Positions 1-56,807 of a stretch of 57,898 nt of DNA are shown one piece after another. Every line of letters begins with the position of its first letter. Within the stretch, counting starts at the first letter, position 1. Both the position numbers and the translations under genes were made by a program. Source of the stretch: Planctomycetota bacterium. GTDB lineage: Bacteria > Planctomycetota > UBA1135 > GCA-002748355. The stretch is from NCBI GenBank assembly GCA_011321845.1, contig DROQ01000080.1:1-57898 (forward strand). Reading direction: 5' to 3'. The notes under the pieces are model-generated. The model was not told the origin of the DNA, made no database searches, and saw only the letters and a program-made list of their open reading frames with translations.

Positions 1-863
1 CAGAACTGAAAAATGGGTACTTCTTCACCCTTTCCGCGGAGAGGGTCTCCTCCGCGCGTGAAGTCAGCACCCAACTCCGAGTACTGAACCCCTGGTCCGG
101 AAACATGTCGGTCCCCCTCGTCTTCGATGGGAGGAACCTCCCCTTGCTTCAACCCCCCCGCCCCAAGAACATCGTCGTTACGGACCAGGAGATCTTCGCT
201 CTCACCCTTTCCCCCGGTAGGAATTTTCGCAAGGGACTCTATGTCCTGGATCGAAAAGGGGATCGGCTCTGGTCTTCCCACCCCCTCAAGCTTGGGTCGG
301 CAGACACCTTCATCGTTTCCGGCGACAAGGTCTTGATTCAGAGCGATTTTGGACGCAAACGCCCGGCATCCGTCCTGCCCCTTCTCCGCAAAACAGGAGA
401 GCGTGAATCTCGCATCCCCCTTGGAGTCCGGGCTTTTTCTCCCCAGACGGACCTTACCGGATCCATCCTGCTTCCAGGCAGCCCGGTCGTCTATCTCAGC
501 CAACATGCGTCCGGAACCGCTCTCACTCTGATCCAGTCCAAGAAAGGGCTCCCTTCCTGGGAGGTGCCCCTTCCCTCCCCCCCCGCCGATTTGGAGAGAG
601 ATCTTCAACGCGGTGTCCCTTTCTTCGGGAAAGACTTTGTCATGCTTGCATGGGAGCGGGATCGGGGGAGGCGTGGGCATCTCCACCTGGTGGGTTTCGA
701 TCGGAACAGCGGGAGAATTGTCCGACGCTTTCTCCTTCGCAAGTCGAGCTTCGTAGATTTAGCCGTCTGGAATGGGCATTTGATCGGCCACAGTTGGAGA
801 GAAACCTGGATTCGCGGCCCAAAGGAGCCGAAAAGGAAAGGGGGGAAAGATGAGGGAAAATAG
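1..863 (+). CDS. Beta-propeller-like protein, 5'-truncated by window edge
   Basis: The reading frame is open from the first full codon (base 3) through the ATG at 105, so the gene almost certainly starts before the window; the visible part is about 287 residues. Short segments such as LYVLDRKGDRLW and VGFDRNSGRIVRR resemble the blade repeats of PQQ-type or quinoprotein-like beta-propellers (weak similarity, judged by eye). No enzyme motif is visible. The stop lies 14 nt past an ATG at 850, and the following toroid protein is best started at 892, so the two are probably co-transcribed. It is likely a secreted or periplasmic propeller heading or continuing the envelope operon; the specific role is unknown. 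Confidence 0.7.
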   Translation, partial: ELKNGYFFTLSAERVSSAREVSTQLRVLNPWSGNMSVPLVFDGRNLPLLQPPRPKNIVVTDQEIFALTLSPGRNFRKGLYVLDRKGDRLWSSHPLKLGSADTFIVSGDKVLIQSDFGRKRPASVLPLLRKTGERESRIPLGVRAFSPQTDLTGSILLPGSPVVYLSQHASGTALTLIQSKKGLPSWEVPLPSPPADLERDLQRGVPFFGKDFVMLAWERDRGRRGHLHLVGFDRNSGRIVRRFLLRKSSFVDLAVWNGHLIGHSWRETWIRGPKEPKRKGGKDEGK

Positions 864-891
864 AATCTCTCGTTACGAAAAAGGAAAAAAA

Positions 892-2100
892 ATGAACTCC
901 AGTGGAACATGGGCTCTGCCCTTCCCTAGGCGATACCTTTCCCGGAAGAACGGAGCCTTTCTCCTTCTCCCCGGTTTGGGGACCGCTCTCGCCCTGTTTT
1001 TTTTCCTGCCCTCCGCCTCGGCCCAAAAAACCAAAGCAGCGACCCAAGGAACCACCGTCTCATCGATCGGGGGAGGGAACTGGGAAGTCACACGCGAGAT
1101 CCAGGAGGCCACGGACGCGGGCCTGGCTTATCTCGCCAAAACCCAAAACCCCGAAGGGTACTGGGCGGGCCATGTGGGGTACAAGATCAACAACAGCTAC
1201 CAACCCACCATGCGGGGCGCCGCCCATGTGGGAGTCACGGCCCTGGCCGCGATGGCCTTTATGGCCTGCGGAGAACTCCCCCAAAAGGGGAAATATGGGA
1301 AGGTTGTCGCCAAAGCCATCGACTTTCTTGCCGCCCACACGGAGGAAAATGGCTACATCACCCTGAACGGGACCCGGATGTACAGCCACGCTTTCGCAAC
1401 CCTGGCCCTCGCCGAAGTCTACGGAATGACCCGGGACCGCAGGGTCCACAAGGCCCTCCAGCGTAGCATCGACCTCATCGTCCAGAGCCAAAACAGGGAA
1501 GGGGGCTGGCGGTACAAACCTTTCGCACAGCAATCAGACATGTCCATCACGGTCTGCCAGGTCATGGCCTTGCGGGCCGCAAGAAACGCGGGGATTCGCG
1601 TCCCCAAGTCGGTCATTGAAAAAGCCGTCCGCTACGTGAGGAGCAGTGCCCGCCAACCAAGATCCTTTCGGGGACGGAGGAGATTCTCCCCCCGGTTCGG
1701 GAACGGAGTGTTCGCTTACCAGCGAAGAGCAGAGGCCCGGGCAACCTTCCCTCTTACCGCCGCGGGGGTCACCATCCTCTATGGAGCGGGAGTCTACAAC
1801 GACCCCCTCATCTCGCGTGGTTTGGACTACATGAGTTCGGAGGTGCGCCGTTTCAACAACCGCTGGGCGGGGCACTACTTCTTTTTCTATGGGAATTACT
1901 ATGCGGTCCAGGCCTTCTTTTTCGCTGGAGGCCGTAGATGGAAGAAATATTTCGACAGCGTCCAACGCCTTCTGCGGAGTTTGCAAGAACCCAATGGAAG
2001 TTGGGCCTGCGATATTGGGCCTGGGTCCAATTTTGGAACGGCTGTTGCTACCCTTATCCTGGCCATTCCCTACCGCTATCTCCCCATTATCCAACGTTGA
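892..2100 (+). CDS. Secreted prenyltransferase/squalene-oxidase-repeat (alpha-toroid) protein
   Basis: The ATG at 892 is preferred over the one at 850: AAGGA lies 6 nt upstream, and this start gives a sensible signal peptide (basic residues, then a hydrophobic stretch ending SASAQ). The mature part has repeated helical-hairpin signatures of the terpene-cyclase/prenyltransferase toroid fold, for example AYLAKTQNPEGYW and IVQSQNREGGWRY, followed by the block ITVCQVMALRAARNAGI. The DxDD acid motif of squalene-hopene cyclases is not seen, so cyclase activity is doubtful. A paralog closes the same operon (8042-9259) and shares the RAARNAGI block and the ending YLPI.QR. Such proteins are common in planctomycete operons with MoxR/BatA/DUF4175-type genes; their function is not established. 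Confidence 0.85.
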   Translation: MNSSGTWALPFPRRYLSRKNGAFLLLPGLGTALALFFFLPSASAQKTKAATQGTTVSSIGGGNWEVTREIQEATDAGLAYLAKTQNPEGYWAGHVGYKINNSYQPTMRGAAHVGVTALAAMAFMACGELPQKGKYGKVVAKAIDFLAAHTEENGYITLNGTRMYSHAFATLALAEVYGMTRDRRVHKALQRSIDLIVQSQNREGGWRYKPFAQQSDMSITVCQVMALRAARNAGIRVPKSVIEKAVRYVRSSARQPRSFRGRRRFSPRFGNGVFAYQRRAEARATFPLTAAGVTILYGAGVYNDPLISRGLDYMSSEVRRFNNRWAGHYFFFYGNYYAVQAFFFAGGRRWKKYFDSVQRLLRSLQEPNGSWACDIGPGSNFGTAVATLILAIPYRYLPIIQR

Positions 2101-2110
2101 CTAGGATCCA

Positions 2111-4531
2111 GTGCATCATTCCGAACCATCCACCGCTTTCACTCCCCTCCTGAGCAACCTTCGTCGGCGTATCAGGCGCCGCTTCTTGCTTCATGGTTTG
2201 GGCTGGTTCGCCACGGCTGTCCTGGGCCTTCTCCTCTTGGACTATGTTCTGGATCGCAGCCTCGACCTTCCCAGTCCGGTCCGAATCATCCTCCTCCTTG
2301 GGATGCTCACATATCTCGCCTTCGGATTTCGGAGGAGGATCCTCTATCCTCTTCGTGCCAGGCTCACTTGGACCGACCTCGCTCTCCTCGTGGAACGCCA
2401 GAGACCGGAACTCCACCAGGCTTTCATCACCGCCGTGGAATACGCGGGTCCCGAGGCCCATCCCCTCCGGGGAGTCTCCCCATCCATGGTGGACAAAGTT
2501 GTCCAGCAGGCCAGGGAACAGATCGCCGACTTCAATCCCGCCAGCGTCATTCGAAAAGACCGGACCCGGCGAGTCTGGGGACTCGCTTCGGCACTTGGCC
2601 TGCTCTTTCTCCTGGTCGGGTTTCAAGACGGAGAAGGCCTGCTCATCTGGGGGCAACGCCTCTTCGGGGCTTCCCTCTCCTATCCTCGCAGAACCTATAT
2701 CACCCTTCAGATTCCCAGATCTTCGGGAAACTATGAGCTAGAGATTCCCAACGAACCCGAAAAACCCATCCACATTCGTCTGGCGCGAGGCGCGGACCTC
2801 CCCATCCTCGCTCATGTCAAAGGCCTGGTTCCGGAAGCTGTGGACCTCGAGTTCCAATCCAAGAGCGGGACTGTTGAAACCATCCCCATGGATCCACGGG
2901 GAAACCGCCGCTTTCGCAAAGTCTTTCGACATATCCTGGAACCATTCCGTGCGAGGGCCATCGGGGGGGATTCGCTCCCTACGAGGTACTTGGAGGTCGA
3001 GGTCCTTGAACCCCCTGTCGCCTTCGATCTCCGAGTCCAGACCATCCCCCCCTCCTACACCAACCTCCCCGCGAGGCTGACCAGGGGAGGGTTGGTCCAA
3101 GCCCTCCCCGGAAGCAAGGTAAGAGTCTTCTTCCGTTGCGCTCAGCCTCTGAAAAAGGGAAGCCTTGAAATCGAAGAAGCCGGAAAGACCATCCCCATCC
3201 AGGAGCTTGGCGCCGAACAGGAGGGCATCCTCTGGCCATCCACAGCAAAAGGAACAAAAACCAAGTCCCCAGGCTCGACTGCCAAGAGCTGGAGCGCCAG
3301 CTTTGTCATGCCGGAGACACCCGATCGTTATCGGATCCATCTCTGGGCTCGAAATGGACTACGGGAGAGAGACAGAGAGAGCCACAGCCTCATTCCCAAA
3401 CCGGACCAAAGACCCAAGGTTCGGCTCTACAGCCCTGGAGCCGCCTTGTCCTCCATGATTCCGGGAGCCAAGTTCCCGCTACGCATCTTTTGCGAAGATG
3501 ACTTCGGCCTGACCAGGATCCAGATCCAAGCCCTCCTCGGAACCAAAGCAAAGGCCGCTCCCAGCATCCTCTGGGAAGCCGAAAACCATTCCGGCTCAAC
3601 CCGATCGCATCCCAAGGCCCCCCCCGAAAAAACACTCAAGGTTTTTTCCCTGCTTCGCCTCAAGACTCCCTCCAGTTACCTGCAACATGCAGAAAGAAAG
3701 CCTCGAGAGGGAGATCGCATCCTCTTCAAGCTCCAAGCCTGGGATGATCGAAGCCCCAACCCGCAAGCCTCGGAACAAATCGACTTTCGGATCGACCTCG
3801 TGGACAAGGAAGAACTCTTGAGACGGCTTCAGAGCCGGCTCCGAGAGACCCGCAGACGGGTCGAAAAAGTGCGTAAAATCCAAGCCGAGGAGAAAAGCAA
3901 ATTGACTCAGCTCCTTGGTTCCTTAGGAAAGGGTGAGACTGCGAACTCCTCGGACTCGAGCCAGGGCATCGGCTCGATCGAGATTGGACAAGAGCGCATC
4001 CAGGCCTTTCTCCACCGCATTCGTCAGACCCTGGCCGAAGTCACCGAAGCCCACCTCCTCAACGGCCTGGACAGCTCCCCGAGCGTCTCCACGGTTTTCG
4101 AGATGTACCGAAAACACTATTCGCAAAACCCCAAGGCACCATCCACAGACCCCGAGTTTCACCGCCTCCTCGCCAAGGCCCGCCGGAACGGTGAGCTTGG
4201 CCCCCTGGAACTTCTCGGCAAGCTCTCCGACATGTTCCAAATCGCCGAAGAAGCTCTGAGCCAGGGAAACAATCCTTGTCGGCAGGTCCTTTCCACGGCC
4301 CAGGCGGAAATATCCGGGAAGCGGATGAGGGAAGAATTGCAAAAAGCCCTCCTTCTCCAGGGGCGTATCCTGGAGGGCTTGGACAAACTTCTCTCTCTCC
4401 TGGAAGATTGGAATGACTACCAGGACTTGGTACGAATGACCCGACGGCTCCGGGATGCCCAACGGGACCTTCTCGAACGCCTGGACTCGAAACGGTCGAA
4501 CACGAAGAAACGAACCAGAAGGGAAAGATGA
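2111..4531 (+). CDS. DUF4175-like membrane protein with coiled coil
   Basis: It starts at GTG 2111 with AGGA a few bases upstream, 10 nt after the preceding stop. The 806-residue product has two close hydrophobic segments near residues 30-75, a third near 153-172, a long extracytoplasmic region with beta-rich, Ig-like stretches, and a charged coiled-coil C-terminal third (from about residue 560). Three N-terminal membrane segments followed by a large soluble domain and helices is the layout of DUF4175-type proteins. It overlaps the next gene by ATGA, indicating translational coupling. It is probably an inner-membrane anchor with a periplasmic domain working with the coiled-coil partner encoded next; the biochemical role is unknown. 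Confidence 0.75.
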   Translation: MHHSEPSTAFTPLLSNLRRRIRRRFLLHGLGWFATAVLGLLLLDYVLDRSLDLPSPVRIILLLGMLTYLAFGFRRRILYPLRARLTWTDLALLVERQRPELHQAFITAVEYAGPEAHPLRGVSPSMVDKVVQQAREQIADFNPASVIRKDRTRRVWGLASALGLLFLLVGFQDGEGLLIWGQRLFGASLSYPRRTYITLQIPRSSGNYELEIPNEPEKPIHIRLARGADLPILAHVKGLVPEAVDLEFQSKSGTVETIPMDPRGNRRFRKVFRHILEPFRARAIGGDSLPTRYLEVEVLEPPVAFDLRVQTIPPSYTNLPARLTRGGLVQALPGSKVRVFFRCAQPLKKGSLEIEEAGKTIPIQELGAEQEGILWPSTAKGTKTKSPGSTAKSWSASFVMPETPDRYRIHLWARNGLRERDRESHSLIPKPDQRPKVRLYSPGAALSSMIPGAKFPLRIFCEDDFGLTRIQIQALLGTKAKAAPSILWEAENHSGSTRSHPKAPPEKTLKVFSLLRLKTPSSYLQHAERKPREGDRILFKLQAWDDRSPNPQASEQIDFRIDLVDKEELLRRLQSRLRETRRRVEKVRKIQAEEKSKLTQLLGSLGKGETANSSDSSQGIGSIEIGQERIQAFLHRIRQTLAEVTEAHLLNGLDSSPSVSTVFEMYRKHYSQNPKAPSTDPEFHRLLAKARRNGELGPLELLGKLSDMFQIAEEALSQGNNPCRQVLSTAQAEISGKRMREELQKALLLQGRILEGLDKLLSLLEDWNDYQDLVRMTRRLRDAQRDLLERLDSKRSNTKKRTRRER

Positions 4532-45273: not shown

Positions 45274-46290
45274 CTAGCGAACCAGGAAATGCTGCCGCCT
45301 GCCGACCCGCTCACGCCAGTAGCCCAGCAAGTCCGCCATGGTCTTCTCGAAAGGAATCTCGGGTTTCCAGCCGGTGTGCTCCCGGAACTTGGTTGTGTCG
45401 GGGACCTGAAGGTCGGCATCGATGGGCCGAAGGCGGGACTTCTCTACGACCACTTCGATGTCCTCCCGAGTGGAAAGGGAGAGCAGGTGGTCGAGCATGT
45501 CCCCCACCGTACAGGAGTAACTTCCTCCGATGTTGTAATACGCCCCAGGGACCGGGTGCACCGTGACCAGCATGTGGTAGGCACGCACGGCATCCCGCAC
45601 ATCGGACCAGGTCCGCATGGAGTCCAAGTTTCCGACCTTGAGAACCGGGGGAATCAACCCCTCTTCGATCATCGCGATCTGCTTGGCGAAGGTCGACTCC
45701 GCGAAGACGTCGCCCCGTCGGGGACCGGTATGCGTAAACATTCGCGTGGTCATGACGCAGAGGCCATAGGCCTCCCCATAGAAGCGCCCGAGCAGATCCG
45801 TCCCCACCTTGGAAATGGCGTAGGGCGAGGCCGGATGGAAACCCACCTCCTCATGGATAGGCAGGTGTTCCCGGGACACCCTTCCGAAGACCTCGGAGGA
45901 GGCGCAGACGTGGACCACGGGCTGGAGCCCCGAGTGCCGGATCGCCTCCAGGACATGGGCCGTTCCGATGATGTTGGTCTGCAGGGTCTCGAGCGGAGCG
46001 TCGAAGCTCGTCTTGGGATAGCTCTGGGCCGCCAGGTGGAACACATAGTCCGGCCGGGCCTCCCGCAGCGCAGCCTGCACGCTGGCGTAGTCGTTGAGAT
46101 CCCCGTAACCGAGGAAGAAGCGGTCCCTGGCGTTCACCCGAGGGAGCAGGTGCTCCACATTGCTGAGGTCCTCGTTCCAGCGCAAAAACCCATGGATGTC
46201 CCAGTCCGTGTTCTCCAGGAGGTAATCCACCAGGTGGGAGCCGACCATTCCGGTCACCCCCGTAATCCAACACCGCGCTCTCTCAGGCAT
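45274..46290 (-). CDS. GDP-mannose 4,6-dehydratase-family NAD(P)-dependent SDR enzyme
   Basis: The ATG at 46290 (GGAGGGG upstream, 8-nt overlap with the previous stop) gives 338 residues. The Rossmann motif is GVTGMVGSHLVDYLL, the catalytic YxxxK is YAISK within HPASPYAISKVGTDLLGRFY, and the segment SSEVFGRVSREHLPI is typical of the GDP-mannose 4,6-dehydratase group, which makes GDP-4-keto-6-deoxymannose for deoxy sugars. The exact substrate (GDP-mannose or another NDP-sugar) is not certain. It follows an RmlC-like epimerase, so the pair probably supplies a modified sugar for surface glycans. Confidence 0.88.
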   Translation of the reverse strand: MPERARCWITGVTGMVGSHLVDYLLENTDWDIHGFLRWNEDLSNVEHLLPRVNARDRFFLGYGDLNDYASVQAALREARPDYVFHLAAQSYPKTSFDAPLETLQTNIIGTAHVLEAIRHSGLQPVVHVCASSEVFGRVSREHLPIHEEVGFHPASPYAISKVGTDLLGRFYGEAYGLCVMTTRMFTHTGPRRGDVFAESTFAKQIAMIEEGLIPPVLKVGNLDSMRTWSDVRDAVRAYHMLVTVHPVPGAYYNIGGSYSCTVGDMLDHLLSLSTREDIEVVVEKSRLRPIDADLQVPDTTKFREHTGWKPEIPFEKTMADLLGYWRERVGRRQHFLVR

Positions 46291-46798
46291 AGCAGCCCCT
46301 CCTGTCCCGCTCGGAAAGAATCGGATCGTCCACCGGCCAGGCAAAGTTCCAGGCAGGGTCGTTCCAGGCGATCGTGAACTGCCTCCCGGGCACGTAATGG
46401 CTGTCCTGCTTGTAGAAGTAGACCAGGACCTCCGACAGAGCCAAAACCGAGTTGCCCACCCCCTTGGGAATCAGGAGCTGCCGACGGTTCTCCCCGCTCA
46501 GTTCGAAGGCCTCCCAGCGCCGGTAGGTCGGCGACTCCTCCCGGTTGTCCGCAAGGATGGCGTAGCCCTCCCCGTGCAGCACTGTCACCAGCTTGGTCGT
46601 CTCGTAGTCCCCGTGGATCCCTCGCAGGACACCCTTCTTGGAGACCGAGAGGTCATCCTGGACCCACTCGATCTCTCCCGCCACCTCGGCATAGGCCTCG
46701 GTGTCGAACAGCTCCACGTAGCGCCCCCGATGGTCCGTAAAAACATCGGGAACGATCTCCATCACGCCCGCAAGGCTCGTCTCTCGCACTTGGATCAT
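46283..46798 (-). CDS. RmlC-like dTDP-sugar 3,5-epimerase (cupin)
   Basis: The 171-residue product has the RmlC pattern: DHRGRYVELFDTEAY, the conserved VLRGIHGDYETTKLV segment carrying the catalytic His, and LIPKGVGNSVLAL. dTDP-4-dehydrorhamnose 3,5-epimerases are about 180 residues. Some members of this cupin family are 3-epimerases or act on other NDP-sugars, so the exact reaction is not certain. It is overlapped by the dehydratase gene and they form an operon. A 275-bp gap separates it from the divergent secreted-protein gene at 47074. Confidence 0.88.
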   Translation of the reverse strand: MIQVRETSLAGVMEIVPDVFTDHRGRYVELFDTEAYAEVAGEIEWVQDDLSVSKKGVLRGIHGDYETTKLVTVLHGEGYAILADNREESPTYRRWEAFELSGENRRQLLIPKGVGNSVLALSEVLVYFYKQDSHYVPGRQFTIAWNDPAWNFAWPVDDPILSERDRRGCYA

Positions 46799-47073: not shown

Positions 47074-47859
47074 ATGCGCTTTTTCTTCTCCTTCTCCCTT
47101 TCTTTATTCGCCCTTCTCCTGCAACCATCCCCCGCCCAGGCCCAGAACTCTTCGAACCTTTTGCGCTGGAACGCCTGGCAAAAGGTGAACGGGCAGTACC
47201 TGAAACAGGTCAAAATCACCAAGACCCATTTGTACTTCGTCCCCTACTACAACAATGGGTTCCAAAAGAAGACCACAGGCTGGAAGCAGGTCTTTACTGT
47301 TCCACAGGCTGGCTACTACCAACTGCATTTTCGGGGAGTGGGTGGATTGACAGGAAAGTTCAATCTCCAAATCAGTCTTGGGGGGAGCACCAGATTCCTC
47401 TCCGCCGACAATTGGAAAATTTCGAAAACCTATTTCCTGAAAAAAGGATCCCAGACCCTGACCATTCTCTCCGATACTTCCAACCTCCTCGCTGATTCCA
47501 TGATCTGGGAACAACCCCAGATTCTCCCCGTCACTCGACCTACCATCGAAGTGGATCGATTGGATTTTGGTTCTCTCGGGGCCAAGCTCATCCTGGAGAC
47601 CAAGTCCGGAAACATCATCCTCATGGGACTACGTCCCTTGAAAAAAGCTCTTTCCATCCCCGGTTTCGGACTAGGGCTCTTGCTGGACCCCAAATCCCAA
47701 ATCTTCCTTTTGGGTTCCACAACAACTCCGCCTCTTCGACTGTTCTTCGCCCGCGAAGTCAAGGTTCTCAAATCGATTCCCAAGGTCTACTTCCAAGCCC
47801 TTTCCTTGAAGCCCGCCCAGCTTGGCTCTCTGACTTGGGTGCAATACAAGAATCTTTGA
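47074..47859 (+). CDS. Secreted protein of unknown function
   Basis: The ATG at 47074 follows AAGGAGG at 47061-47067, a strong ribosome-binding site. The product (261 residues) starts with a signal peptide (MRFFFSFSLSLFALLLQPSP, cleavage after AQA) and is mostly beta-rich. The C-terminal third (GLGLLLDPKSQIFLLG ... VYFQALSLKPAQLG) resembles a tail seen on many planctomycete secreted proteins; this is similarity by eye. No catalytic residues. It is divergent from the epimerase and probably exported to the surface or medium. Confidence 0.7.
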   Translation: MRFFFSFSLSLFALLLQPSPAQAQNSSNLLRWNAWQKVNGQYLKQVKITKTHLYFVPYYNNGFQKKTTGWKQVFTVPQAGYYQLHFRGVGGLTGKFNLQISLGGSTRFLSADNWKISKTYFLKKGSQTLTILSDTSNLLADSMIWEQPQILPVTRPTIEVDRLDFGSLGAKLILETKSGNIILMGLRPLKKALSIPGFGLGLLLDPKSQIFLLGSTTTPPLRLFFAREVKVLKSIPKVYFQALSLKPAQLGSLTWVQYKNL

Positions 47860-48486
47860 TTCCTGGGAGGGAGTGCCCCCCCTTAAAGAGAAACCCGGTG
47901 CATCCAAGACCCCCTTTCCCTTGAATCACAGGGCTAAGAGTGGAGCAGTGCTGTCCGAGATCATCCGCCCCTCTCTCCGAACCCCCCTCCATTCTCTGTG
48001 GAACCCGCATTCTAGGTTCAAAACTCCACCATACGAAATCAGGTACCCCTTGCCTGGAGGCCAAGTTTTTGGTCCCCAGCATTACCATATGGGCGATGAA
48101 GGAAAAGCGATCTTGGACAGGCCTGGGAGTGGAGAGGCTCCTCCGAAATCGAGGCGGGTGGGATCAGGGTTTCTTCCCAGACCCGTACTTTGGTCATCTT
48201 GGTCCTGCTCTTCCTTACCCCGGGGATGCTCTTTTCGCGAAGCGAAGAAAGTCGACGGAACCCTGGGCCTGACCAATGGGGAAAAGCAGAGTTGCGGTTG
48301 AGCCTCCCTTTGCCCTAGAAGGAGAAGGTACGGCCAAAGGCCGGCTCCCCGCAATTCCTTGGATCCTCCCGTCTGGTGGATCCCGTGAAAAACAGCGTGG
48401 CCATCCTCCCTCCCTGGCTCCAGACCCTCAAGAACCCATGACAAGGGGACGATAGATGGGGAAAAAGGATCTCCTTTTCCCCGCCA
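47860..48486. other. 627-bp gap holding repeat copy A and a possible gene remnant
   Basis: No convincing complete gene is seen. Bases 47945-48127 are repeat copy A. After it, one plus-strand frame from TTG 48190 to a TAG at 48316 encodes a hydrophobic segment like a signal peptide (TLVILVLLFLTPGMLF) followed by about 25 polar residues; it has no good start or Shine-Dalgarno and may be the remnant of a secreted protein. A T/C-rich stretch precedes the DUF4254 gene at 48487. Confidence 0.5.
47945..48127 (+). repeat. Repeat copy A, 168-bp core with terminal inverted repeats
   Basis: The core runs from TGTCCGAGAT (47952-47961) to ATCTTGGACA (48110-48119): 10-bp ends that are inverted copies of each other with one mismatch. 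Copies B and C at 51.8-52.1 kb match it throughout without large gaps and in the opposite orientation, with the same GCAGTGC before and GGCCTG after. An internal reading frame (LSEIIRPSLRTPLHSLWN) is also similar in the other copies. Confidence 0.8.
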
Positions 48487-49083
48487 ATGACGACCTTCCC
48501 AAAAAACAATAAATTGCGACCTCTCTGTGAAAGGATTTTTCAGCAAATGGAGAGATGGCACGAGGAAGGGAAAGAGTTCTTCCCCGCCCCCTTCCCATCC
48601 GGTGTGCCCAAGACCCTTGCGGCCTGCCTTGAAAAGCTGGCCTACCACAACTTTCATATCTGGCATTATGAGAATTACGGGCGCTCCGAACAGGACCACC
48701 TCGTGGTCTTCGGTTGGCAAGGATGCCAGGAAAACAACAAGGAAAGGAACCTCACGATCAATGCGATCGATGACTTGATCCGTCCCCACTACCGAAAAGG
48801 AGTCCCTTTTCATTCTGAAACTTTGGGTTCGCTCCTGGACCGGGTCACAATCCAGTACCTCAAATACTTATATATGAGAAGAGGGAATCCCCTCCTCGGT
48901 CCCCAAATCCTGGAGAACATCCTGGCCCTGATCGATTGTGGCCAAGAGTTGTTGGACCAAGTCTTCGCGGGAAAGATCCGCTGCCTGGAGCTTCCACGCC
49001 TCAAGCACTACTTCTTTGAAGAAAGGAACCAGGGTCCGACCTCACTCCCCGAGGTTCACGAAGGGATGGACTCCGGGACATGA
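48487..49083 (+). CDS. DUF4254-family protein
   Basis: The 198-residue product shows the DUF4254 pattern: LAYHNFHIWHYENYGRSEQD, then ERNLTINAIDDLIRPHY, and FHSETLGSLLDRVTIQYLKY, the SETxGxxxDRL..LK signature. DUF4254 genes are often found with glycosyltransferases in lipopolysaccharide-type clusters; their biochemical function is unknown. No signal peptide, so cytoplasmic. No clear Shine-Dalgarno before the ATG. It overlaps the next gene by ATGA (49080-49083), so translation of all three genes in this operon is coupled. DNA here is lower in GC than the neighbouring cluster at 52-57 kb. Confidence 0.85.
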   Translation: MTTFPKNNKLRPLCERIFQQMERWHEEGKEFFPAPFPSGVPKTLAACLEKLAYHNFHIWHYENYGRSEQDHLVVFGWQGCQENNKERNLTINAIDDLIRPHYRKGVPFHSETLGSLLDRVTIQYLKYLYMRRGNPLLGPQILENILALIDCGQELLDQVFAGKIRCLELPRLKHYFFEERNQGPTSLPEVHEGMDSGT

Positions 49084-49904
49084 TTCGCCTCTACCTCTAC
49101 AACAACTACCATGCGGGGGACCAGGTGTTCACCCGTCCCCTTTACCGTGCCCTTCTCGCATCCCAAAAGTACGAAATCTGGATCGGGATTCATCACAATC
49201 ACCGCAGCATCGTGGAGGATTTGGAAGAAGAAGGCGCCCATCTCGTGGTCAGCGACTACGAGGATCGCCTCCCCAGCCCCCAATGGGATCTTCGCTACGA
49301 CTGCCCCCCAACCTGTCTTCCGATCACGACCTGGCTCGGCACTTACGAGGACACCTTGCAACACAATTGGGCCCATCTCGTCACCGTTTTTGATCGCCAG
49401 CTCAGCCGCTACGGTCTCAGCCACCCTCCCATCCCCATCCGCCCAGTCCCCATGGTGGATTTCCGCCCCCTTCCCTCTCTCCCTCCCCTTCCCTCTCCCT
49501 GTGTCTATCTCGACAATTCCACAACGAGATCGGGGCAATCCCACTTTGTTTTTGATGAGAGAGTCCTCGCAGAGACCTTTCCCGAATGTCACTTTCTCTG
49601 CACAGCACCACCTAGGCACAGTGCCAGGAACCTCCTGGATGGCTCAAGCCTGAACCTGCGAGAGCTTTCCCTCCTAAGCGATTCTTGTCTTGCCATCCTC
49701 GGAAAAGGGAGCGGCCCCTTCTGCTGCACCTACACCGAGGTCAACCGATTCAAGCCCCGGGCCATGTGTGGATTTCGATGGGAAGCCTTTGAAGCGTTTT
49801 GGGACTATGAGGGCAACCCCCTGAAATTCTTGGATTCCATGGAAGAGGTTCTCCAGTTTGTGCACCAAAGCCTGAGCCCCAGCCCACAAATCGCCCAAGC
49901 ATGA
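49080..49904 (+). CDS. GT-B-like putative glycosyltransferase (paralog of 53830-54696)
   Basis: The 274-residue product begins LYLYNNYHAGDQVFTRPLYRALLAS, the strand-loop-helix with G-D seen at the start of GT9/heptosyltransferase-like GT-B proteins, and ends with GKGSGPFCCTYTEVNRFKP, where the second nucleotide-binding domain would carry a Gly-Ser-Gly loop. It shares LYNN, DYEDT and NRFKP with the protein at 53830, so they are clear paralogs. Glycosyltransferase activity is an inference. It is coupled by ATGA to both the DUF4254 gene and the FkbM gene. A role in surface polysaccharide or glycan synthesis fits the context. Confidence 0.7.
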   Translation: MIRLYLYNNYHAGDQVFTRPLYRALLASQKYEIWIGIHHNHRSIVEDLEEEGAHLVVSDYEDRLPSPQWDLRYDCPPTCLPITTWLGTYEDTLQHNWAHLVTVFDRQLSRYGLSHPPIPIRPVPMVDFRPLPSLPPLPSPCVYLDNSTTRSGQSHFVFDERVLAETFPECHFLCTAPPRHSARNLLDGSSLNLRELSLLSDSCLAILGKGSGPFCCTYTEVNRFKPRAMCGFRWEAFEAFWDYEGNPLKFLDSMEEVLQFVHQSLSPSPQIAQA

Positions 49905-51214
49905 CAACCATTCCCCGAGCCATCCCTACTCCGAAGAAAACCCCGGCTCCAAGCCCAATCGGATCCCCCGACCTGTCCCGAGCCGAATTCCTGGGAACGG
50001 AGCAGGCCTTCGACTGGTTTTCCATACCACAGGGTTTCTGCGCTTTTCCAAGTCTTCCCCTCCACCTGGATCTATCCCCGGAAGAACGCTCAGAGATACT
50101 GATCTTCTTCCACCCCGATTTGCAGGGATTGAAGAGGGGAATTCAGCTCTACTTACGAAGCCTCCCTGACCTTTCCCAGGCCCGAGCCAAGCTGACCGAA
50201 GCCTGGACACCCTCCACTTTTGAACCGTTGACCCATCTGGGCCCCCAGCTCTGTTCACTTCGCCATGCCCTGGTTCAAACCTACAACTGGTTTCCGCATT
50301 CCATTGGAGTCCTGGACTCCCTTGCGCTTTGCGCCTTTGCCCTGAATCGGTGGGAAGAAGGGCTCTTTCATCTCAGGAAAAGCATCGATCTCTGCCAAAA
50401 CCCCGCAGAGTCCCTTCTCATCCTCGCCAACGCCTTGAAAACCGAAGGGAAAGAAGTTGAGTTCCGGTCCTACCAAGAAAAAGGTCTCCGGCTCCAACGC
50501 CGAACCGCCATCCGGAAAAACCTGAGCACCGTGGGCGAACACGTTCTATGGGACAGCCCCGAAGTCTGCGAGCTGGTTCGAGGCGTCATCCAAGTGGGGG
50601 CAAACGTCGGAGACGAAGTCCAGGCCTTCTCCAAGATCGGGATCCCCCACCAGTGCTATTTCGAAGCTCTTCCCTCCGCTTGGGAACAGCTCCAGAAGAC
50701 CCTGGAAAGCGTCGACCATGAACGGTTCCAAGTCCTGAGCTTCCCCATCGCCCTGGGAAACAGAGTGGGCCAGCTCCCCTTCTTCGAGGGCCAGCACAGC
50801 GGAAACAGCAGTTTTTTAGACCTCGCCCCCAGTCGATCCAAAAGCCAAGAAGGGAACGTTCACAAGAGAACGATCCAGGTCCCCGTGGAAACCCTGGACC
50901 ACATGGTCGAGCAAGGAAAGATCCCCCTGGAGAACTACAATCTTCTCTTTTTGGATGTCCAAGGTTATGAGCACGAGGTCATCAAGGGAGCAAGGAAATC
51001 CCTTCCCTGCATCGATTTCATCGTTCTCGAAGTGAGCTACACCGAGATCTACGAGGGAAATCCTCTCTCCCAGGAGACCCGGAGTTTCCTCGAAGGTCTA
51101 GGTTTTCAACGCTACAAAGAAGCCCCGGGTCACTACCCTGAACAGGGCGATGCCATCTACATTCGAAAAGGTTCCAAAGTGGCCAAGGATCTTCGGATCA
51201 ACCTCTACTCCTGA
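49901..51214 (+). CDS. FkbM-family methyltransferase with TPR-like N-terminal region
   Basis: Residues ~100-195 look like TPR-type helical repeats (LDSLALCAFALNRWEEGLFHL). The C-terminal ~220 residues are a class I methyltransferase of the FkbM type: GVIQVGANVGDEVQAF is the SAM-binding glycine loop, RTIQVPVETLDHMVEQGKIP and LFLDVQGYEHEVIKGARKSL are the FkbM blocks. FkbM-type enzymes methylate sugar hydroxyls. The same architecture occurs in the large protein at 54693-56807. The start overlaps the preceding stop by ATGA. No signal peptide. It is the last gene of the three-gene operon; a long gene-poor stretch follows. Confidence 0.85.
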   Translation: MTTIPRAIPTPKKTPAPSPIGSPDLSRAEFLGTEQAFDWFSIPQGFCAFPSLPLHLDLSPEERSEILIFFHPDLQGLKRGIQLYLRSLPDLSQARAKLTEAWTPSTFEPLTHLGPQLCSLRHALVQTYNWFPHSIGVLDSLALCAFALNRWEEGLFHLRKSIDLCQNPAESLLILANALKTEGKEVEFRSYQEKGLRLQRRTAIRKNLSTVGEHVLWDSPEVCELVRGVIQVGANVGDEVQAFSKIGIPHQCYFEALPSAWEQLQKTLESVDHERFQVLSFPIALGNRVGQLPFFEGQHSGNSSFLDLAPSRSKSQEGNVHKRTIQVPVETLDHMVEQGKIPLENYNLLFLDVQGYEHEVIKGARKSLPCIDFIVLEVSYTEIYEGNPLSQETRSFLEGLGFQRYKEAPGHYPEQGDAIYIRKGSKVAKDLRINLYS

Positions 51215-51309
51215 TTGGGAAAACAAGGGCGTGGTGGAAGTGGCATCATCCCTCCTACCGGGTCCGGATCTCCTTTTGCTTGGGGACTCCTCCCGAATGA
51301 ACGAGAGTT

Positions 51310-51684
51310 TCATCGACCAGGCCCCCCGGGGGTCGAGAGGATGCCATCGCCCATGATGGTGGGGAGGTCGGCAATCTTTTCGTGTGGAGGGGGATTTGCA
51401 TCTCCTCGGCCGGCTGCCTCCCATCAAGCCCCAGGAAAACCCGGCTGGGGATCAACCGAAATCCGAAGGGTTCCGCCTTTTGAGGATTTCCAAACATCGA
51501 TGAAGTCCACGCGAAGCCGGCTCCAGGAACGATTTCGCAATCCCTCCAAAACAGGAATCATGGCGATGCAACTAGCCCATGCGTCCGAACCAAACTCCAC
51601 CTTGCGGATCATCGGCTTCTCTGCCCGGGCCGCCAGCTTGGGAGGGGCCTCCGAAGGCCCCTCTTCCTTGCCTCGTAAAGCGCA
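51310..51684 (-). pseudogene. Frameshifted thioredoxin-like gene remnant
   Basis: One minus-strand frame reads VEFGSDAWASCIAMIPVLEG and LRVDFIDVWKSSK, matching the strand, the active-site region and the second strand of thioredoxin-fold proteins. The homology then continues in a different frame as PFGFRLIPSRVFLGLDGR, which is the cis-proline part of the fold, and a third frame supplies the likely end (DLPTIMGDGILSTPGG then TGA at 51312-51310). The active site has WASC, so the first Cys of CxxC is missing. An in-frame TAG at 51685 cuts off the N-terminus with no start codon. The gene is therefore broken by at least two frameshifts and truncated. Confidence 0.65.
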
Positions 51685-51763
51685 CTAGGCGAAGGCCCCC
51701 ATCACTGCCAGTCCAACCAAAATCCAGACCCCATTCCTATTCCTGCATGTTTACCCCAACTCA

Positions 51764-51941
51764 GGCAGGTCCAAGATAAGTTTTCTCTCATGGCCCAGAC
51801 TTGATTCTGAAGCCCCAAAACCTGGATGGCAGAAAAGGGGAACCTGAATTCGAAAGGTGGAGTTTCGGCTTTTGAATGCAGATTCCAAAGTGAATAGAGG
51901 GGGGTTCGGAGAGAGGGGCGGATGATCTTGGACAGCACTGC
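51764..51941 (-). repeat. Repeat copy B, 167-bp core
   Basis: The core runs 51768-51934 on the minus strand, from TGTCCAAGAT (read in the repeat's direction) to ATCTTGGACC, with one base changed in the terminal inverted repeat. The inside, starting with CATCCGCCCCTCTCTCCGAA, is very similar to copy A. It is followed at once by copy C, separated only by a 16-bp linker. Confidence 0.8.
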
Positions 51942-51944
51942 CCC

Positions 51945-52125
51945 CAGGCCTGTCCAAGATAGCTTTTCCAAAACTGTCCAAACGTAAGCCTGAAAACCAA
52001 ATACCTGGAAAGAAGACAAGGGGAACTTGATTTCGAAAGGGCGGGTTTTGGGATTAGGATGCAGGTTTCAGCGGGAATTGGAGGGGTTTCGAGAAGAGAG
52101 CTGAATTATCTTGGACAGCACTGCA
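51945..52125 (-). repeat. Repeat copy C, 167-bp core, tandem to B
   Basis: The core runs 51951-52117 with perfect 10-bp inverted ends (TGTCCAAGAT / ATCTTGGACA). It is more diverged from A and B internally but has the same length. B and C have a period of 183 bp, with linker GCACTGCCCCCAGGCC (51935-51950). All three copies lack a transposase or other obvious gene. Confidence 0.8.
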
Positions 52126-52351
52126 CTGCCCCCAACTCGTCGAATATCCGGAACGATCCTTGGCGGCTCCCCCCGGAAAGGGTAGACATGCTTGTCTGCT
52201 TTTGCAAAAAAGCCAATCTTTAGTTCTGCCAGCAAATCGTCACGGGGAAGGGAGGGAACCGGACTCAAAATCCTGCGCGGACGTATTGTGCGCAGCCGAA
52301 CTGGCTCTCCCAGAAGGGCGACAACAACACATTCCCATCAGGACCACCACC

Positions 52352-53833
52352 TCAAAACCCTGCACGGCGGAAAAGGCTCTCCCAGAAAACACGGGCGTTG
52401 TAGAAGGTAACGGCTTTTCGATGCCCGGCGAGGGCGATGGCGGCTCGCTCCTCCTCGTGCTCAAGGTAGTAGCGCGCCTTGGCCATGAGGTCGTCGAAGT
52501 CCCGGAAGGACACGAACTCCTTGCCAGGGATAAAATAGGTGGAGACGTAGGGGTTGAGGTCGCAGAGGAGCATGGCGCCGCAATGGGTGATCTCGAAGAT
52601 GCGGCCCTTGAGCTGCTTTACGCGATCCTGGGTGAGGGCGAGGGAGATCTTGGAGCGCTGGAAGAGCCGGGCGTATTCGGGGACGCTGCGGATCAGATCC
52701 GGGTCGACGGCACTGGTCGGAATGATATGGATGTCGAGATCGGCCTGGGCCTGGAGTTGGACGATCAGGTCCTTGCGCTGCTGGAGGTGGCGGAGTTCTC
52801 CGACGAGGCTGAGGCCCAGGTCGCGTTCGAGGCCGGGGTCGTGGAAATAGGCAGGGTTTTTCGGGGTGAAAATGGGCCAGGAGTTGGGCAACTCGAAATC
52901 GTTGCCGTCGAGGATGACGTTGATGTCGGAGACTTCGGCGTATTCGGGTTTGGGGTCGCTGGTCTTTTTATCCAGCCATATGTAGACGATCTTGCTGCCA
53001 GCGGCTTTGGCGGCCTCGAGGAGGGCGACACTGGGGTTGGCGGGGCTGTGGTAGTGGTAGGTGCTGACGATCAAATGGTTCTTCACGCCGGGGGGAGGGC
53101 TGAGGTCCTCGAGACGGAGGGGGCGGCCCTGGTGGTGGTATTCGTCGTAGAAGACGAGGCTGTGGCCGGCGAGGCCGCTCTGCTCGAGGGGATGGACGAG
53201 GTTGTCGAGGTTGATGGAGAGGCCGGACTTCTCATAGCCGTGGGCGTATTTCTCGATGCAGAAGGTGACGTGGATGGGCTCGGGCGGGCGGAGGAAGAGG
53301 GCGCGGCCTCCTTCCAGCTCGAGGACCTGGTGACGGTAGCCGGGAGCCCAACGCTGGCACTGGTCGGCGAGGGCGGTCAGGAGGGAGGGGCTGCCCTCGG
53401 GCTCGAAGAGAACCAGGCCCCCCTGGCCCCGGGGAACATAGAAGAGAGCCTGACGGAGGGCTTCGAGGCTGGTTCCCCTGGCGTGGAAGAAGTAGAGGCA
53501 GCGCTCCGCGCGCAGGCGGCGGCGCCAGTCGGCCAAGACGCGGCCGGGGGGGCCTTGGACCAGGCGCAGGCGGGAAAGGGGGAGGTCCTGGAGCTGGGTG
53601 GACAGGGCGCGCAGGGTCTCGGGCCGGCCGACGGCCACGAGGACCTGGGGGAGGAGTTCGGCCAGGGCGCGCAGCTCGGCGGCGTTCCCTCCACCGAGGC
53701 AGACGGCCTGCTCCAGCCCCAGCTCGCGGCAGTAGGAACCCAGCTCCTCGGAAAAAACGGCGTCCAGGAGGGAAAGGTCGGGGGGGGAGCCTTCCTTGGA
53801 ATTGGGAGGAGAGGGAAGCATGGGAGGATTCAT
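52352..53833 (-). CDS. CgeB-like putative glycosyltransferase
   Basis: The ATG at 53833 overlaps the previous stop by ATGA and gives 493 residues; the frame extends further upstream only as a shadow of the GT-B-like gene. The C-terminal ~280 residues resemble the CgeB/Glyco_trans_1_2 group: FEITHCGAMLLCDLNPYVST, FIPGKEFVSFRDFDDLMAKA and RYYLEHEEERAAIALAGHRK. The N-terminal ~160 residues (AVCLGGGNAAELRALAELLP) look like a separate degenerate domain, perhaps related to SAM-binding folds. It has no signal peptide. It is the last gene of a high-GC operon for surface glycan synthesis or modification. Confidence 0.8.
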   Translation of the reverse strand: MNPPMLPSPPNSKEGSPPDLSLLDAVFSEELGSYCRELGLEQAVCLGGGNAAELRALAELLPQVLVAVGRPETLRALSTQLQDLPLSRLRLVQGPPGRVLADWRRRLRAERCLYFFHARGTSLEALRQALFYVPRGQGGLVLFEPEGSPSLLTALADQCQRWAPGYRHQVLELEGGRALFLRPPEPIHVTFCIEKYAHGYEKSGLSINLDNLVHPLEQSGLAGHSLVFYDEYHHQGRPLRLEDLSPPPGVKNHLIVSTYHYHSPANPSVALLEAAKAAGSKIVYIWLDKKTSDPKPEYAEVSDINVILDGNDFELPNSWPIFTPKNPAYFHDPGLERDLGLSLVGELRHLQQRKDLIVQLQAQADLDIHIIPTSAVDPDLIRSVPEYARLFQRSKISLALTQDRVKQLKGRIFEITHCGAMLLCDLNPYVSTYFIPGKEFVSFRDFDDLMAKARYYLEHEEERAAIALAGHRKAVTFYNARVFWESLFRRAGF

Positions 53834-54696
53834 CGCAGGGCGACCTCCCCTTCCCCCGGACAGGCGGGAAAGACGGACTGCAGCAGATCCACCAGCTCGT
53901 CCATGTCGCGGACATACTCGGTGGGGTCGCCAGGGTAGGGATAGAAGCGCGCGATCTTCCGCGCGTCGTAGCCGCAGAGAGCCTTGGGCTTGAAGCGATT
54001 GGCCTCGGTCAGGGTCAGGGCGAAGGGATCGAAGGTCCGCCCCAGGAGGAAGTCGCAGCCCTCGCTGAGCAGGCTGCACTCGAGCGGAGAGAGATCCGAG
54101 ACATCGATGAGGTTGCTCCATTCTTGGGGCGGAGCCTGGGTGCAGAAGAAGCGCAGGTCGGGAAAGAGCCGGGCCAGGCGGGGGAGATCGAAGAAGAAGC
54201 GGCAGCGACCGTCGCGGGTCCGGCGCAGCTCGATGTAGACACCCGGCTTCGGACCCTCCCCCGCGGAAGGGGCGAGCAGAGCCTGGACCCGCGCCGAAGG
54301 GGACAGCCTTCGCAGGTCCAACAAGGGGATGTCCTCCTCGTCGAAGGGGAGGTCCAGGGCGATCCCATGCTCCTCCATCCGCCGGCGGCAGACTTCCAGG
54401 ACGAACTCGTAGGAGAAGAAATGGGTGTCCTCGTAGTCGCCCAGGTTCATCGAGAGGGGCAAGGAGTCCGGGGGGCAGAGATAGGCGAGGTCGATAGGCG
54501 CCCCGTCGGCCAGGCAGTGGTAATCGCTGATCCAGAGTTCGGCCCCCAGGTCCCGAAGGTCGGCGTAGAGATCGGCCCGATTCCGGCAGACCCCGATCTG
54601 GAGCTGGAAGCTGCCCGCCTCCAGGAGTTTGCGGTAGAGGATCCGGGAGAGCAGAAGGTCCGCCAGCCCGCCGTTGTTGTAGAGAAAGAGCTTCAA
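53830..54696 (-). CDS. GT-B-like putative glycosyltransferase (paralog of 49080-49904)
   Basis: It starts at TTG 54696, overlapping the previous stop by TTGA, with GGAGG at a good distance. The 288-residue product begins LFLYNNGGLADLLLSRILYR, and ends LTEANRFKPKALCGYDARK, matching the protein at 49080 in the LYNN, DYEDT and NRFKP regions. The fold looks like GT-B (GT9-like); donor and acceptor are unknown. It is encoded between a double methyltransferase and a CgeB-like glycosyltransferase, in the opposite direction to its paralog. Confidence 0.7.
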   Translation of the reverse strand: MKLFLYNNGGLADLLLSRILYRKLLEAGSFQLQIGVCRNRADLYADLRDLGAELWISDYHCLADGAPIDLAYLCPPDSLPLSMNLGDYEDTHFFSYEFVLEVCRRRMEEHGIALDLPFDEEDIPLLDLRRLSPSARVQALLAPSAGEGPKPGVYIELRRTRDGRCRFFFDLPRLARLFPDLRFFCTQAPPQEWSNLIDVSDLSPLECSLLSEGCDFLLGRTFDPFALTLTEANRFKPKALCGYDARKIARFYPYPGDPTEYVRDMDELVDLLQSVFPACPGEGEVALR

Positions 54697-56807
54697 ACCG
54701 CCCTCCTTCGCCGCTCCGGCATCGGGCGCCGCGTCCTCCGAAACAGCGCCTCCCCCCAGAGTCCCTGGGGTCCCGGCTCATAGGCCCGGAGCCAAAAGCC
54801 CCGCTCGTCGAGGTAGAGGCGCAGCTCTTCGGGCTCGGGGGTCCCCTCGAAGAGCGGCGCGAAGAAGACCTTGCAGCGGATGAGATCCACGCCCTTCAAA
54901 AATTCCTCCGCGCCCTTGAGGACCTCCAGCTCCCGCCCGCCCGCGTCGATCCAGAGCAGGTCCAGGCCCTCGGCCGGGAGGACATCCTCGGCCACCAGCC
55001 CATCGAGGCTGCGAACCGGCACCGGGATGGCCTCCACCTGGGCCAGGCCCTCCCTCCCACGAAAGGGCGCGGCCAGCTCGGCCAGCGAGCTGCTCCAACC
55101 CCGCAAGCCGCGCAGGAGGCGGCCCTCCGCCGGAGCGGCCCCCACCGCGCAGGCCAGGATAGGGTGTCCCCCTTGGATCTTTTCCCGGGCACGGGGGTCG
55201 GGCTCGATGAGGACCTGGGGGAGGCCGAGGCGGTCGAAGGCCCCCACCTGCGTCCCCGAGCCCACGCCCACCTGAAGCACCCCCCCGATCCCTGCGAGGA
55301 ACTCGGGGTAGGACCAGAGCATGCTTCCGCGCAGCTCCTCGCGGCAGATCCGCCCCACTTCGCTTCGCCGCAGCGCGGCCCGCACCTCCTCCAGCAGCTC
55401 CCGCCCCAAGACTTCGTCCCGGAGGACCTCCATCGCCACCCGGGCCAAAACCTGGATCAACTCCTGCTCGTGGTAGTTGCGCCGCAGCACCTTGCGGAGC
55501 AGAAACCATCCCTCCCTCGGCCTGTCGGCGAAGAGCATGAAGGTCCCGAGGACCAGCCCCAAGCGCGCCGAGTGGTGGTAAAGGTGGTAGGAAGGCAGCA
55601 GCCGCTCCCGCAAACCGGGGAGCCCCCGCACAAGCTCCGCGCCCAGCGACTGCGCCTCGTCGAGCCGCCCCTCCGCCAGCAGCCCGCGGCAGCGCCCCAG
55701 GGCCTCCTCCGCCCGCACGAAGTCCCGCACCAAAGCCCCCAGACTCTCCCTTCCCTCCCCCCAGAGCACCAGGGGATAGGCGTCCCGGTCGATCTCCCTC
55801 GGATCGAAGTCCCCACCCGGCACCGCGAACAGCCCCCCCTCCGCCGCGTGGATCGAAAACCCCTCCAGCTCCTCCAGCAGCCGCGGCGACCCGGATACCG
55901 AAGAGGACCCCACCAGCCGAGATTCGCCCGGCCGAGACTCCGGTGGCCTAGCCTCCCCCGGCCGAGACTCCCCCGGCTGAGACTCCGACGGCTGAGACTC
56001 CCGCGGCCCCCCTTTTCCAGACTCCACCGGCCAAGGCTCCCGTCGCCACCCATTTCCAGCCCCCCCCGGCCGAGGCTCCGCGGGGCTTCCTTCTCCGACC
56101 TCTCCCCTCCCAAGCTCAAGCGCCACCACCCCCCGCGCCCACTCCTCCCGCATCTCCTCGCTCTGCTCGTAGTAGAGGATGGCCCGGTCCGCATGAAACA
56201 CCCCAAGCCGCGCCTCCCTCGGGAGCAGGTAGTCCCTCTCCAGCTCGAACAAAAAGCGCCCCACCCCCAGCTCCTCCCGGCGTCCCGCAAAGGCCTGGCT
56301 CCCATCGCAAAAAGCCACCAGCCCCCCCACCCGAACCAGCGGCGCGTAACCCCTCCAGTCCCTCAAGAACGCCCCATAGGACTCCTCCCCATCCAAGAGG
56401 AGGACATCCACCTCCGGCAGCAGCTCCCGCACGCGCTCCCGCGTCGCAGCCTCCCCCGGATCCCCCACCAGGATCGTCTCCCGCGCAGGATCCAGGCCCT
56501 GGTCCTCGAGGTAGGCCCGGACCCTTCGCTCCTCCCGCTCCACCGTCACCAGCCGCCCCCCGAGCAGGCTCAGCGCATAGTGCATCCCTCCGTGCCTCCC
56601 CAGCCCGACCTGGAGCACCCTCGCCCCCAGCCCCCGCCGCAGCAGAAGCCCGAAAAAATCCTCGAGCACCGACCGGACCTGGGCCAGGGCCGGGTCATAC
56701 TGCCCGGCCCGCTGGGAGTTGTGGTAACCCACCCCCCGCCTCTCCGGCCTCGCCATCACCCAGGCGTCCACCTCCGCCAGGATCTGCTGGCATTTTTCCT
56801 CGCTCAT
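54693..56807 (-). CDS. Double methyltransferase: class I domain plus C-terminal FkbM domain
   Basis: The start chosen is ATG 56807 (AAAAGG upstream), giving 704 residues. Residues ~60-200 are a class I SAM methyltransferase (RVLQVGLGRHGGMHYALSLL; DVLLLDGEESYGAFL). Around residues 255-315 the protein has a run of Ser-Arg/Gln-Pro-Gly-Glu repeats (SQPGESRPGEARPPESRPGE), which looks flexible. A TPR-like helical part follows, then a C-terminal FkbM domain (GVLQVGVGSGTQVGAFDRLG; LDLLWIDAGGRELEVLKGAE). The TPR-plus-FkbM half parallels the protein at 49901. Both modules probably methylate glycans. It overlaps the next gene by TTGA. Confidence 0.85.
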   Translation of the reverse strand: MSEEKCQQILAEVDAWVMARPERRGVGYHNSQRAGQYDPALAQVRSVLEDFFGLLLRRGLGARVLQVGLGRHGGMHYALSLLGGRLVTVEREERRVRAYLEDQGLDPARETILVGDPGEAATRERVRELLPEVDVLLLDGEESYGAFLRDWRGYAPLVRVGGLVAFCDGSQAFAGRREELGVGRFLFELERDYLLPREARLGVFHADRAILYYEQSEEMREEWARGVVALELGRGEVGEGSPAEPRPGGAGNGWRREPWPVESGKGGPRESQPSESQPGESRPGEARPPESRPGESRLVGSSSVSGSPRLLEELEGFSIHAAEGGLFAVPGGDFDPREIDRDAYPLVLWGEGRESLGALVRDFVRAEEALGRCRGLLAEGRLDEAQSLGAELVRGLPGLRERLLPSYHLYHHSARLGLVLGTFMLFADRPREGWFLLRKVLRRNYHEQELIQVLARVAMEVLRDEVLGRELLEEVRAALRRSEVGRICREELRGSMLWSYPEFLAGIGGVLQVGVGSGTQVGAFDRLGLPQVLIEPDPRAREKIQGGHPILACAVGAAPAEGRLLRGLRGWSSSLAELAAPFRGREGLAQVEAIPVPVRSLDGLVAEDVLPAEGLDLLWIDAGGRELEVLKGAEEFLKGVDLIRCKVFFAPLFEGTPEPEELRLYLDERGFWLRAYEPGPQGLWGEALFRRTRRPMPERRRRAV

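Follow-up and report, generated by a model that had tools for sequence, protein, structure and literature searches.

The locus and its gene layout

The window, that is, the whole stretch of 57,898 nucleotides analysed here (contig DROQ01000080.1, called C80 of the planctomycete genome G000), contains two groups of genes downstream of 45 kb that point at each other. The function and history of these two groups, modules A and B, are the subject of this report. Module A lies on the plus strand and encodes a DUF4254 protein, a glycosyltransferase (GT1) and an FkbM methyltransferase (FkbM1). Module B lies on the minus strand and encodes a CgeB-like glycosyltransferase, a GT1 paralogue (GT2) and a double methyltransferase (Table 1). 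Adjacent genes of a module share a few bases at their ends (49080/49083 and 49901/49904 in module A; 53830/53836 and 54693/54696 in module B), an arrangement expected of two operons. An earlier note had described these genes from the letters of the window. All of its gene positions were reproduced by the open reading frame (ORF) and domain calls, and matches to PF14063, PF13524 and PF13578 confirm that the first module contains DUF4254 and the second a CgeB-like glycosyltransferase and an extra methyltransferase domain.

Table 1. Features of the window discussed in the text
Feature	Position	Strand	Evidence or remarks
GDP-heptose 4,6-dehydratase homologue	45274-46290	-	54% identity to 7US5 over 324 aligned residues
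RmlC-like cupin, putative 3- and/or 5-epimerase of a 4-keto sugar nucleotide	46283-46798	-	PF00908, E=2e-47
MITE-like repeat, in opposite orientation to the pair at 51762-52123	47946-48125	-	Terminal inverted repeats; flanking 9-mers AGAGTGGAG/GGAGTGGAG, 8/9
DUF4254 protein, module A, predicted helical	48487-49083	+	PF14063, 39.6 bits (gathering cut-off 27)
GT1, module A, GT-B-like glycosyltransferase of an unnamed family	49080-49904	+	AlphaFold model, Foldseek, tree
FkbM1, module A, helical (TPR-like) region and FkbM methyltransferase	49901-51214	+	PF05050, E=2.5e-19; TIGR01444 over cut-off
MITE-like repeat	51762-51940	+	Member of the ~179-bp family
MITE-like repeat, integrated at the end of the preceding copy	51945-52123	+	Perfect 9-bp flanking duplication CACTGCCCC
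CgeB-like glycosyltransferase, module B	52352-53836	-	PF13524, E=3.6e-21
GT2, module B, GT1 paralogue	53830-54696	-	36% identity to GT1, E=2e-57
Double methyltransferase, module B: Methyltransf_24, low-complexity linker, TPR-like region, diverged FkbM	54693-56807	-	PF13578 and PF05050
MITE, miniature inverted-repeat transposable element; TPR, tetratricopeptide repeat.

Paralogy and fold of the glycosyltransferases

By alignment, the glycosyltransferase (GT) pair and the FkbM pair are true paralogues. The identity of GT1 and GT2 is 36% over 279 aligned columns (E=2e-57), and that of FkbM1 and the double methyltransferase is 28% over 385 columns, which include the helical region preceding FkbM (E=5e-31). 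The paralogy of both pairs proposed by the earlier note is borne out, since both alignments are significant.

The GT family, comprising GT1, GT2 and their relatives, has no match in Pfam, PHROG, NCBIfam or the PDB sequences, and a profile of the family found only chance matches among the PDB sequences. An AlphaFold model based on an alignment of eight members has a predicted local distance difference test score (pLDDT) of 89.3 and a predicted template modelling score (pTM) of 0.87. The best PDB matches of this model found by Foldseek are GT-B enzymes, namely the elaiophylin glycosyltransferase, the heptosyltransferase TibC and the GT9 protein 3tov, with WaaF and WaaC also present at weaker E-values. 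The probabilities are near 1.0 and the TM-scores reach 0.58, at about 11-13% identity and E-values from 4e-5 to 8e-3. At such low identity the predicted GT-B fold class is well supported, but assignment to the GT9 family is not. The name 'GT-B-like' given by the earlier note is thus justified by the predicted fold and Foldseek, but not by sequence searches, which gave nothing.

The GT-B fold predicted for the GT family is also that of the GT9 heptosyltransferases WaaC and WaaF, and of TibC. GT9 enzymes carry Gly-Asp after the first strand, as do many members of the GT family; GD, AD or ED is found in the loop after this strand in 12 of 14 members, and is likened to the GT9 catalytic Asp by position only. 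The GT family differs from these enzymes in its length (274 residues compared to about 320-390), in the low identity of the structural alignments and in having no match to the GT9 profile.

In a tree of the 14 members, the GT1-type proteins form one clade with 100/100 support, containing GT1 of the window, two copies from genome G003 and one each from G016 and G421. The GT2-type genes fall outside this clade. GT1 and GT2 are therefore old paralogues and, barring the transfer of entire clusters, their duplication predates the split of the two families in the taxonomy. No relatives of the GT family or of DUF4254 were found on plasmids. The GT gene of G422 (L089, G422:C91) has an in-frame stop codon, which might represent decay, an assembly error or the plain end of the gene.

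The methyltransferases and DUF4254

PF05050 is matched over its cut-off by both FkbM1 and the double methyltransferase, as in the known FkbM family, and TIGR01444 by FkbM1 only. Unlike that family, the window proteins are fused to a TPR-like region, and that of module B is also fused to Methyltransf_24; its FkbM half has diverged in several members. PF13578 covers residues 76-183 and PF05050 residues 550-688 of the double methyltransferase (numbering of the longer ORF). The S-adenosylmethionine (SAM) motif of FkbM1, VIQVGANVGDE, is intact in the window and also in G003 and G016, but is degenerate in G421. In the FkbM half of the double methyltransferase the window protein has a weakened motif, VGVGSGT, and some relatives a broken one; the Methyltransf_24 domain keeps its motif. 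A division of labour between the two FkbM copies is plausible from these motifs.

The low-complexity linker of the double methyltransferase, rich in Ser, Pro, Gly and Glu, is encoded by 15-bp tandem repeats (55916-56079). Relatives have versions of this protein that are shorter by 50-90 residues, and in G425 (L072, G425:C351) an in-frame stop near the end of the frame may be due to decay, an assembly error or a plain gene end.

DUF4254 is matched over its cut-off only in G000, G003, G016 and G421, the four genomes with GT1-type genes, and in a gene remnant in G001. This distribution suggests a partnership between DUF4254 and GT1. The model of DUF4254 has a pLDDT of 78 and no fold match in the PDB, and no function was drawn from its structure. 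A weak match in G020 was discarded, being below the cut-off and in an unrelated neighbourhood. A KedN5-like B12 radical SAM gene adjoins DUF4254 or its remnant in two genomes (L038, G001:C80, 1743-3824; L013, 5818-7830); none was seen beside module A in the window.

Genes of a probable GDP-heptose pathway

Two genes that the earlier note had missed, at 45274-46290 and 46283-46798, are the best clue to the function of the modules. The dehydratase scores 371 bits against the GDP-heptose enzyme, 195 bits against the next PDB family and 160 bits against GDP-mannose dehydratase. Its RmlC-like neighbour, which adjoins it also in G001, G016, G421, G038, G407, G406, G412 and G404, has nearly equal scores to dTDP-RmlC (of dTDP-rhamnose synthesis) and to GDP-heptose epimerases and is under the rmlC equivalog cut-off. 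Like the heptose enzyme 8dak, it has an RGIHGD stretch that lacks the two-residue insertion, and its GxGN motif contains Asn.

Contig C81 of the same genome carries an operon (L067, G000:C81, 7146-13156) of HddC-like, GmhB, HddA-like, E1 alpha, E1 beta and B12-type radical SAM genes. The kinase, 7-phosphatase and guanylyltransferase genes of the GDP-heptose route are all in this operon, and all are below equivalog cut-offs; the presence of E1 and radical SAM genes hints at an unusual sugar. The genes of the operon are also grouped in G016 and G003. The order of the GHMP kinase, E1 and radical SAM genes is the same in G016 and also in G003, where there is an extra reductase-like gene. GmhA-like genes were dropped as a discriminating marker because each of the 12 genomes tested has them, whether or not it carries the modules. 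Genes for a FAD oxidoreductase and an MMPL-like transporter lie near the heptose cluster of G016 (L009, 16941-19770), and similar genes were seen by eye near the cluster in L013 and L075.

The gene set resembles the capsular GDP-heptose modification pathway of Campylobacter jejuni (PMC10680097, PMC7949155). Both include, from the GDP-heptose route, a kinase, a phosphatase and a guanylyltransferase, together with a 4,6-dehydratase (54% identical) and an epimerase of RmlC fold. In the planctomycete, however, no C4-reductase was seen beside the dehydratase, and E1 alpha/beta and B12 radical SAM genes are part of the operon. A GDP-fucose synthase-like gene, a candidate C4-reductase, is found in the G003 cluster; none was seen in the window or the C81 operon, the rest of the genome not having been searched. 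Furthermore, the C. jejuni pathway is not known to include the transferases or the FkbM proteins, and the C7-specific residues of the epimerase differ.

Linkage, co-occurrence and history of the modules

The HddA-like kinase and the dehydratase are on one contig, 9-13 kb apart, in eight genomes (G016, G038, G404, G406, G407, G412, G418 and G419). In G003, the heptose operon runs directly into FkbM1, two GT genes and DUF4254. Among 154 genomes of the order, belonging to 87 genera, 16 have the dehydratase and 17 the kinase; 15 carry the two together and 18 at least one of them. The GT family occurs in 10 genomes, all of which are among these 18. Counted by genus, the eight genera with the GT family are all within the 11 that have the pathway. 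A match at locus L015 (Siliceabacter) was rejected as due to chance, there being no related gene at that place.

Both modules are present in G000, G016 and G421, the GT1-type module alone in G003 and module B alone in G412 and G425. In G001, which belongs to the same genus as G000, module B is intact, but module A is a remnant adjoining the RmlC-like gene (L038, 3891-4468), consisting of DUF4254 residues 82-163 and FkbM1 residues 197-231 and 360-431, with GT1 gone. The CgeB-like gene is beside GT2 in the window, G001, G412 and G425, and beside GT1 in G016 and G421. The parts of the modules are thus separable and reshuffled. Where both modules occur, they are adjacent and face each other. This placement, together with the old separate lineages of the GTs, makes the modules look complementary rather than exchangeable. 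The earlier suggestion of 'interchangeable modules' therefore stands as far as separability is concerned, but a swap of one module for the other was not demonstrated, and the two lineages are old.

Proposed function and alternative explanations

The two modules are probably accessory glycan-decorating operons of a GDP-heptose pathway. This reading is founded on the paralogy of both pairs, the 54% identity of the dehydratase, the C81 operon, the kinase-dehydratase linkage, the co-occurrence, the fold matches to GT-B enzymes and heptosyltransferases, the old split of GT1 and GT2, and the shared distribution of DUF4254 and GT1. GDP-heptose would be made and then 4,6-dehydrated by the product of 45274-46290, two steps that are supported by homology. 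The RmlC-like protein may epimerise the dehydratase product. GT1, GT2 and the CgeB-like enzyme would add the heptose-type sugar, or adjacent sugars, to a growing glycan chain. O-methylation of that sugar would fall to FkbM1 and the Methyltransf_24 domain, and DUF4254 may be a partner of the GT1-type enzymes. The most likely destination, as expected from the gene content, is an envelope glycan. Modules A and B would have originated from an old duplication of one GT and TPR/FkbM pair and would have been gained and lost separately between genera, providing two different, partly optional decorations. The 'unrecognised surface-glycan synthesis system' suggested by the earlier note is well supported as regards glycan synthesis, now narrowed to the GDP-heptose type by the dehydratase homology, the C81 operon, the linkage and the co-occurrence; a location at the surface is plausible. 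'Unrecognised' fits the GT family, which is named in no library, but not the FkbM, DUF4254 and CgeB-like parts, which belong to known families.

Several points weigh against a GDP-heptose role. Its enzyme activities, donor and acceptor are predictions, and a GT-B fold does not decide the donor sugar; none of nine GT members is matched by the GT9 family profile at E-values up to 5. In the Campylobacter epimerases, Ile56 and His123 are reported to recognise the seventh carbon and to set C7 specificity (PMC7949155), but the RmlC-like protein has Ser and Val at these positions. The HddA, HddC and GmhA matches are under the NCBIfam cut-offs. The GT family is found without the dehydratase in G003 and G410 and without the kinase in G411. 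Eight relatives have the heptose pathway and lack the GT family, so the modules would be optional rather than required for the pathway. Finally, the co-occurrence gives Fisher values much smaller than 1e-6, but these are uncorrected for shared ancestry, and genomes that are related do not count as independent.

The neighbouring genes might serve an ordinary 6-deoxyhexose pathway, of the GDP-4-keto-6-deoxymannose or dTDP-rhamnose type, with the modules decorating a common hexose glycan. GDP-mannose dehydratase and RmlC do belong to the same superfamilies as the window neighbours, and the RmlC-like protein keeps Ser where the C7 enzymes have Ile. Nevertheless, this explanation is quite improbable, because the dehydratase scores more than twice as high against the heptose enzyme as against GDP-mannose dehydratase, and it co-occurs and is linked with the heptose-kinase-like gene, GmhB and the HddC-like gene. 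A secreted oligosaccharide or a glycosylated natural product, instead of an envelope glycan, is also an unlikely product of the cluster; the two methyltransferases and several transferases would tailor it, as in orthosomycin-type clusters. The E1 alpha/beta and B12-binding radical SAM genes of the heptose operon, which recall the E1-like pairs of avilamycin and paulomycin (PMC4425429, PMC10338323), and the MMPL-like exporter and FAD oxidoreductase near the G016 cluster would fit such a product. However, inspection of the genes around the modules revealed no polyketide, peptide or other scaffold gene, and the retention of the pathway in 17-18 genomes from two families is at least as good a fit to a structural glycan.

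Two further explanations concern the modules themselves. GT2 and the FkbM half of module B could be decaying copies with little or no catalysis, acting as scaffolds or partners of the module A enzymes. GT2 is without Gly-Asp after the first strand in G016 and G421, and several double methyltransferases have a weakened FkbM SAM motif, which is lost in that of G003. We consider decay rather doubtful: GT2 has an intact reading frame in the window and in G001, G016, G421 and G412, the Asp is retained by most members, module B occurs by itself in G412 and G425, and the Methyltransf_24 domain looks intact. That module A is a mobile cassette, a composite transposon between inverted repeats, is very improbable and already contradicted. 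Inverted repeats do lie on both sides of it, its GC content at third codon positions (GC3) is below that of its neighbours, and it is missing or decayed in relatives. However, the left repeat (8/9) and the outer right repeat (9/9) each have their own 9-bp duplication, indicating that they were inserted one by one and not as a unit with module A; the repeat family has dozens of copies across the genome; and the decayed module A of G001 is at the same place beside the RmlC-like gene.

Within the GDP-heptose reading, the cluster might make a branched nine-carbon sugar, although this is an unlikely elaboration. E1-like pairs build two-carbon branches on sugars in the avilamycin and paulomycin clusters, and branching at C4 by the E1 pair, like that by AviB1/AviB2 and as proposed for everninomicin, is a speculative analogy (PMC4425429, PMC10338323). 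As with AviB1/AviB2, the E1 alpha/beta-like pair is within a 4-keto-sugar cluster; here, however, it accompanies GDP-heptose genes in a planctomycete. Should the E1 and radical SAM enzymes share one sugar as their substrate, a branched heptose would be of a type for which we know of no precedent in a cell envelope. The GDP-heptose reading offers a testable function for a nameless glycosyltransferase family and a working link for DUF4254, which one paper in the literature searched mentions. A further implication is a GDP-heptose pathway of the Campylobacter type in planctomycetes, on which the literature searched gave nothing.

Base composition and mobile repeats

Base composition was judged from the window and from further stretches of sequence. 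With GC3 values of 0.65-0.66 for the genes of module A and 0.84-0.86 for those of module B, the higher GC of the second module, pointed out previously, is real. The orthologues in G003, G016, G421 and G001 have no gap of this kind. Other genes of the window have GC3 values of mostly 0.64-0.92, with one doubtful ORF at 0.42. A foreign origin of module A on the grounds of GC alone was rejected in view of this wide span and of the remnant at the same place in G001. A low-GC hypothetical gene (47074-47859) between the RmlC-like gene and module A has no family match over cut-off.

The three repeats beside module A belong to a MITE-like family of ~179 bp with 16-bp terminal inverted repeats (CAGTGCTGTCCAAGAT / CAGGCCTGTCCAAGAT) and 9-bp target duplications, dozens of copies of which occur genome-wide in G000 (82 matches, compared to 0 for a reversed control). 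The flanking 9-mers are identical in 10 of 21 copies and agree in at least 7 of 9 positions in 15 of 21. The repeats have no match in Rfam. The inverted ends recur on a longer element (L120, G000:C69, 2137-3926, overlapping 579-3567), which contains two overlapping frames (2384-2995 and 2977-3474) and adjoins another transposase-like ORF (849-2168), the frames being called transposase-like by the look of their sequence. This element is a candidate driver of the MITE family.

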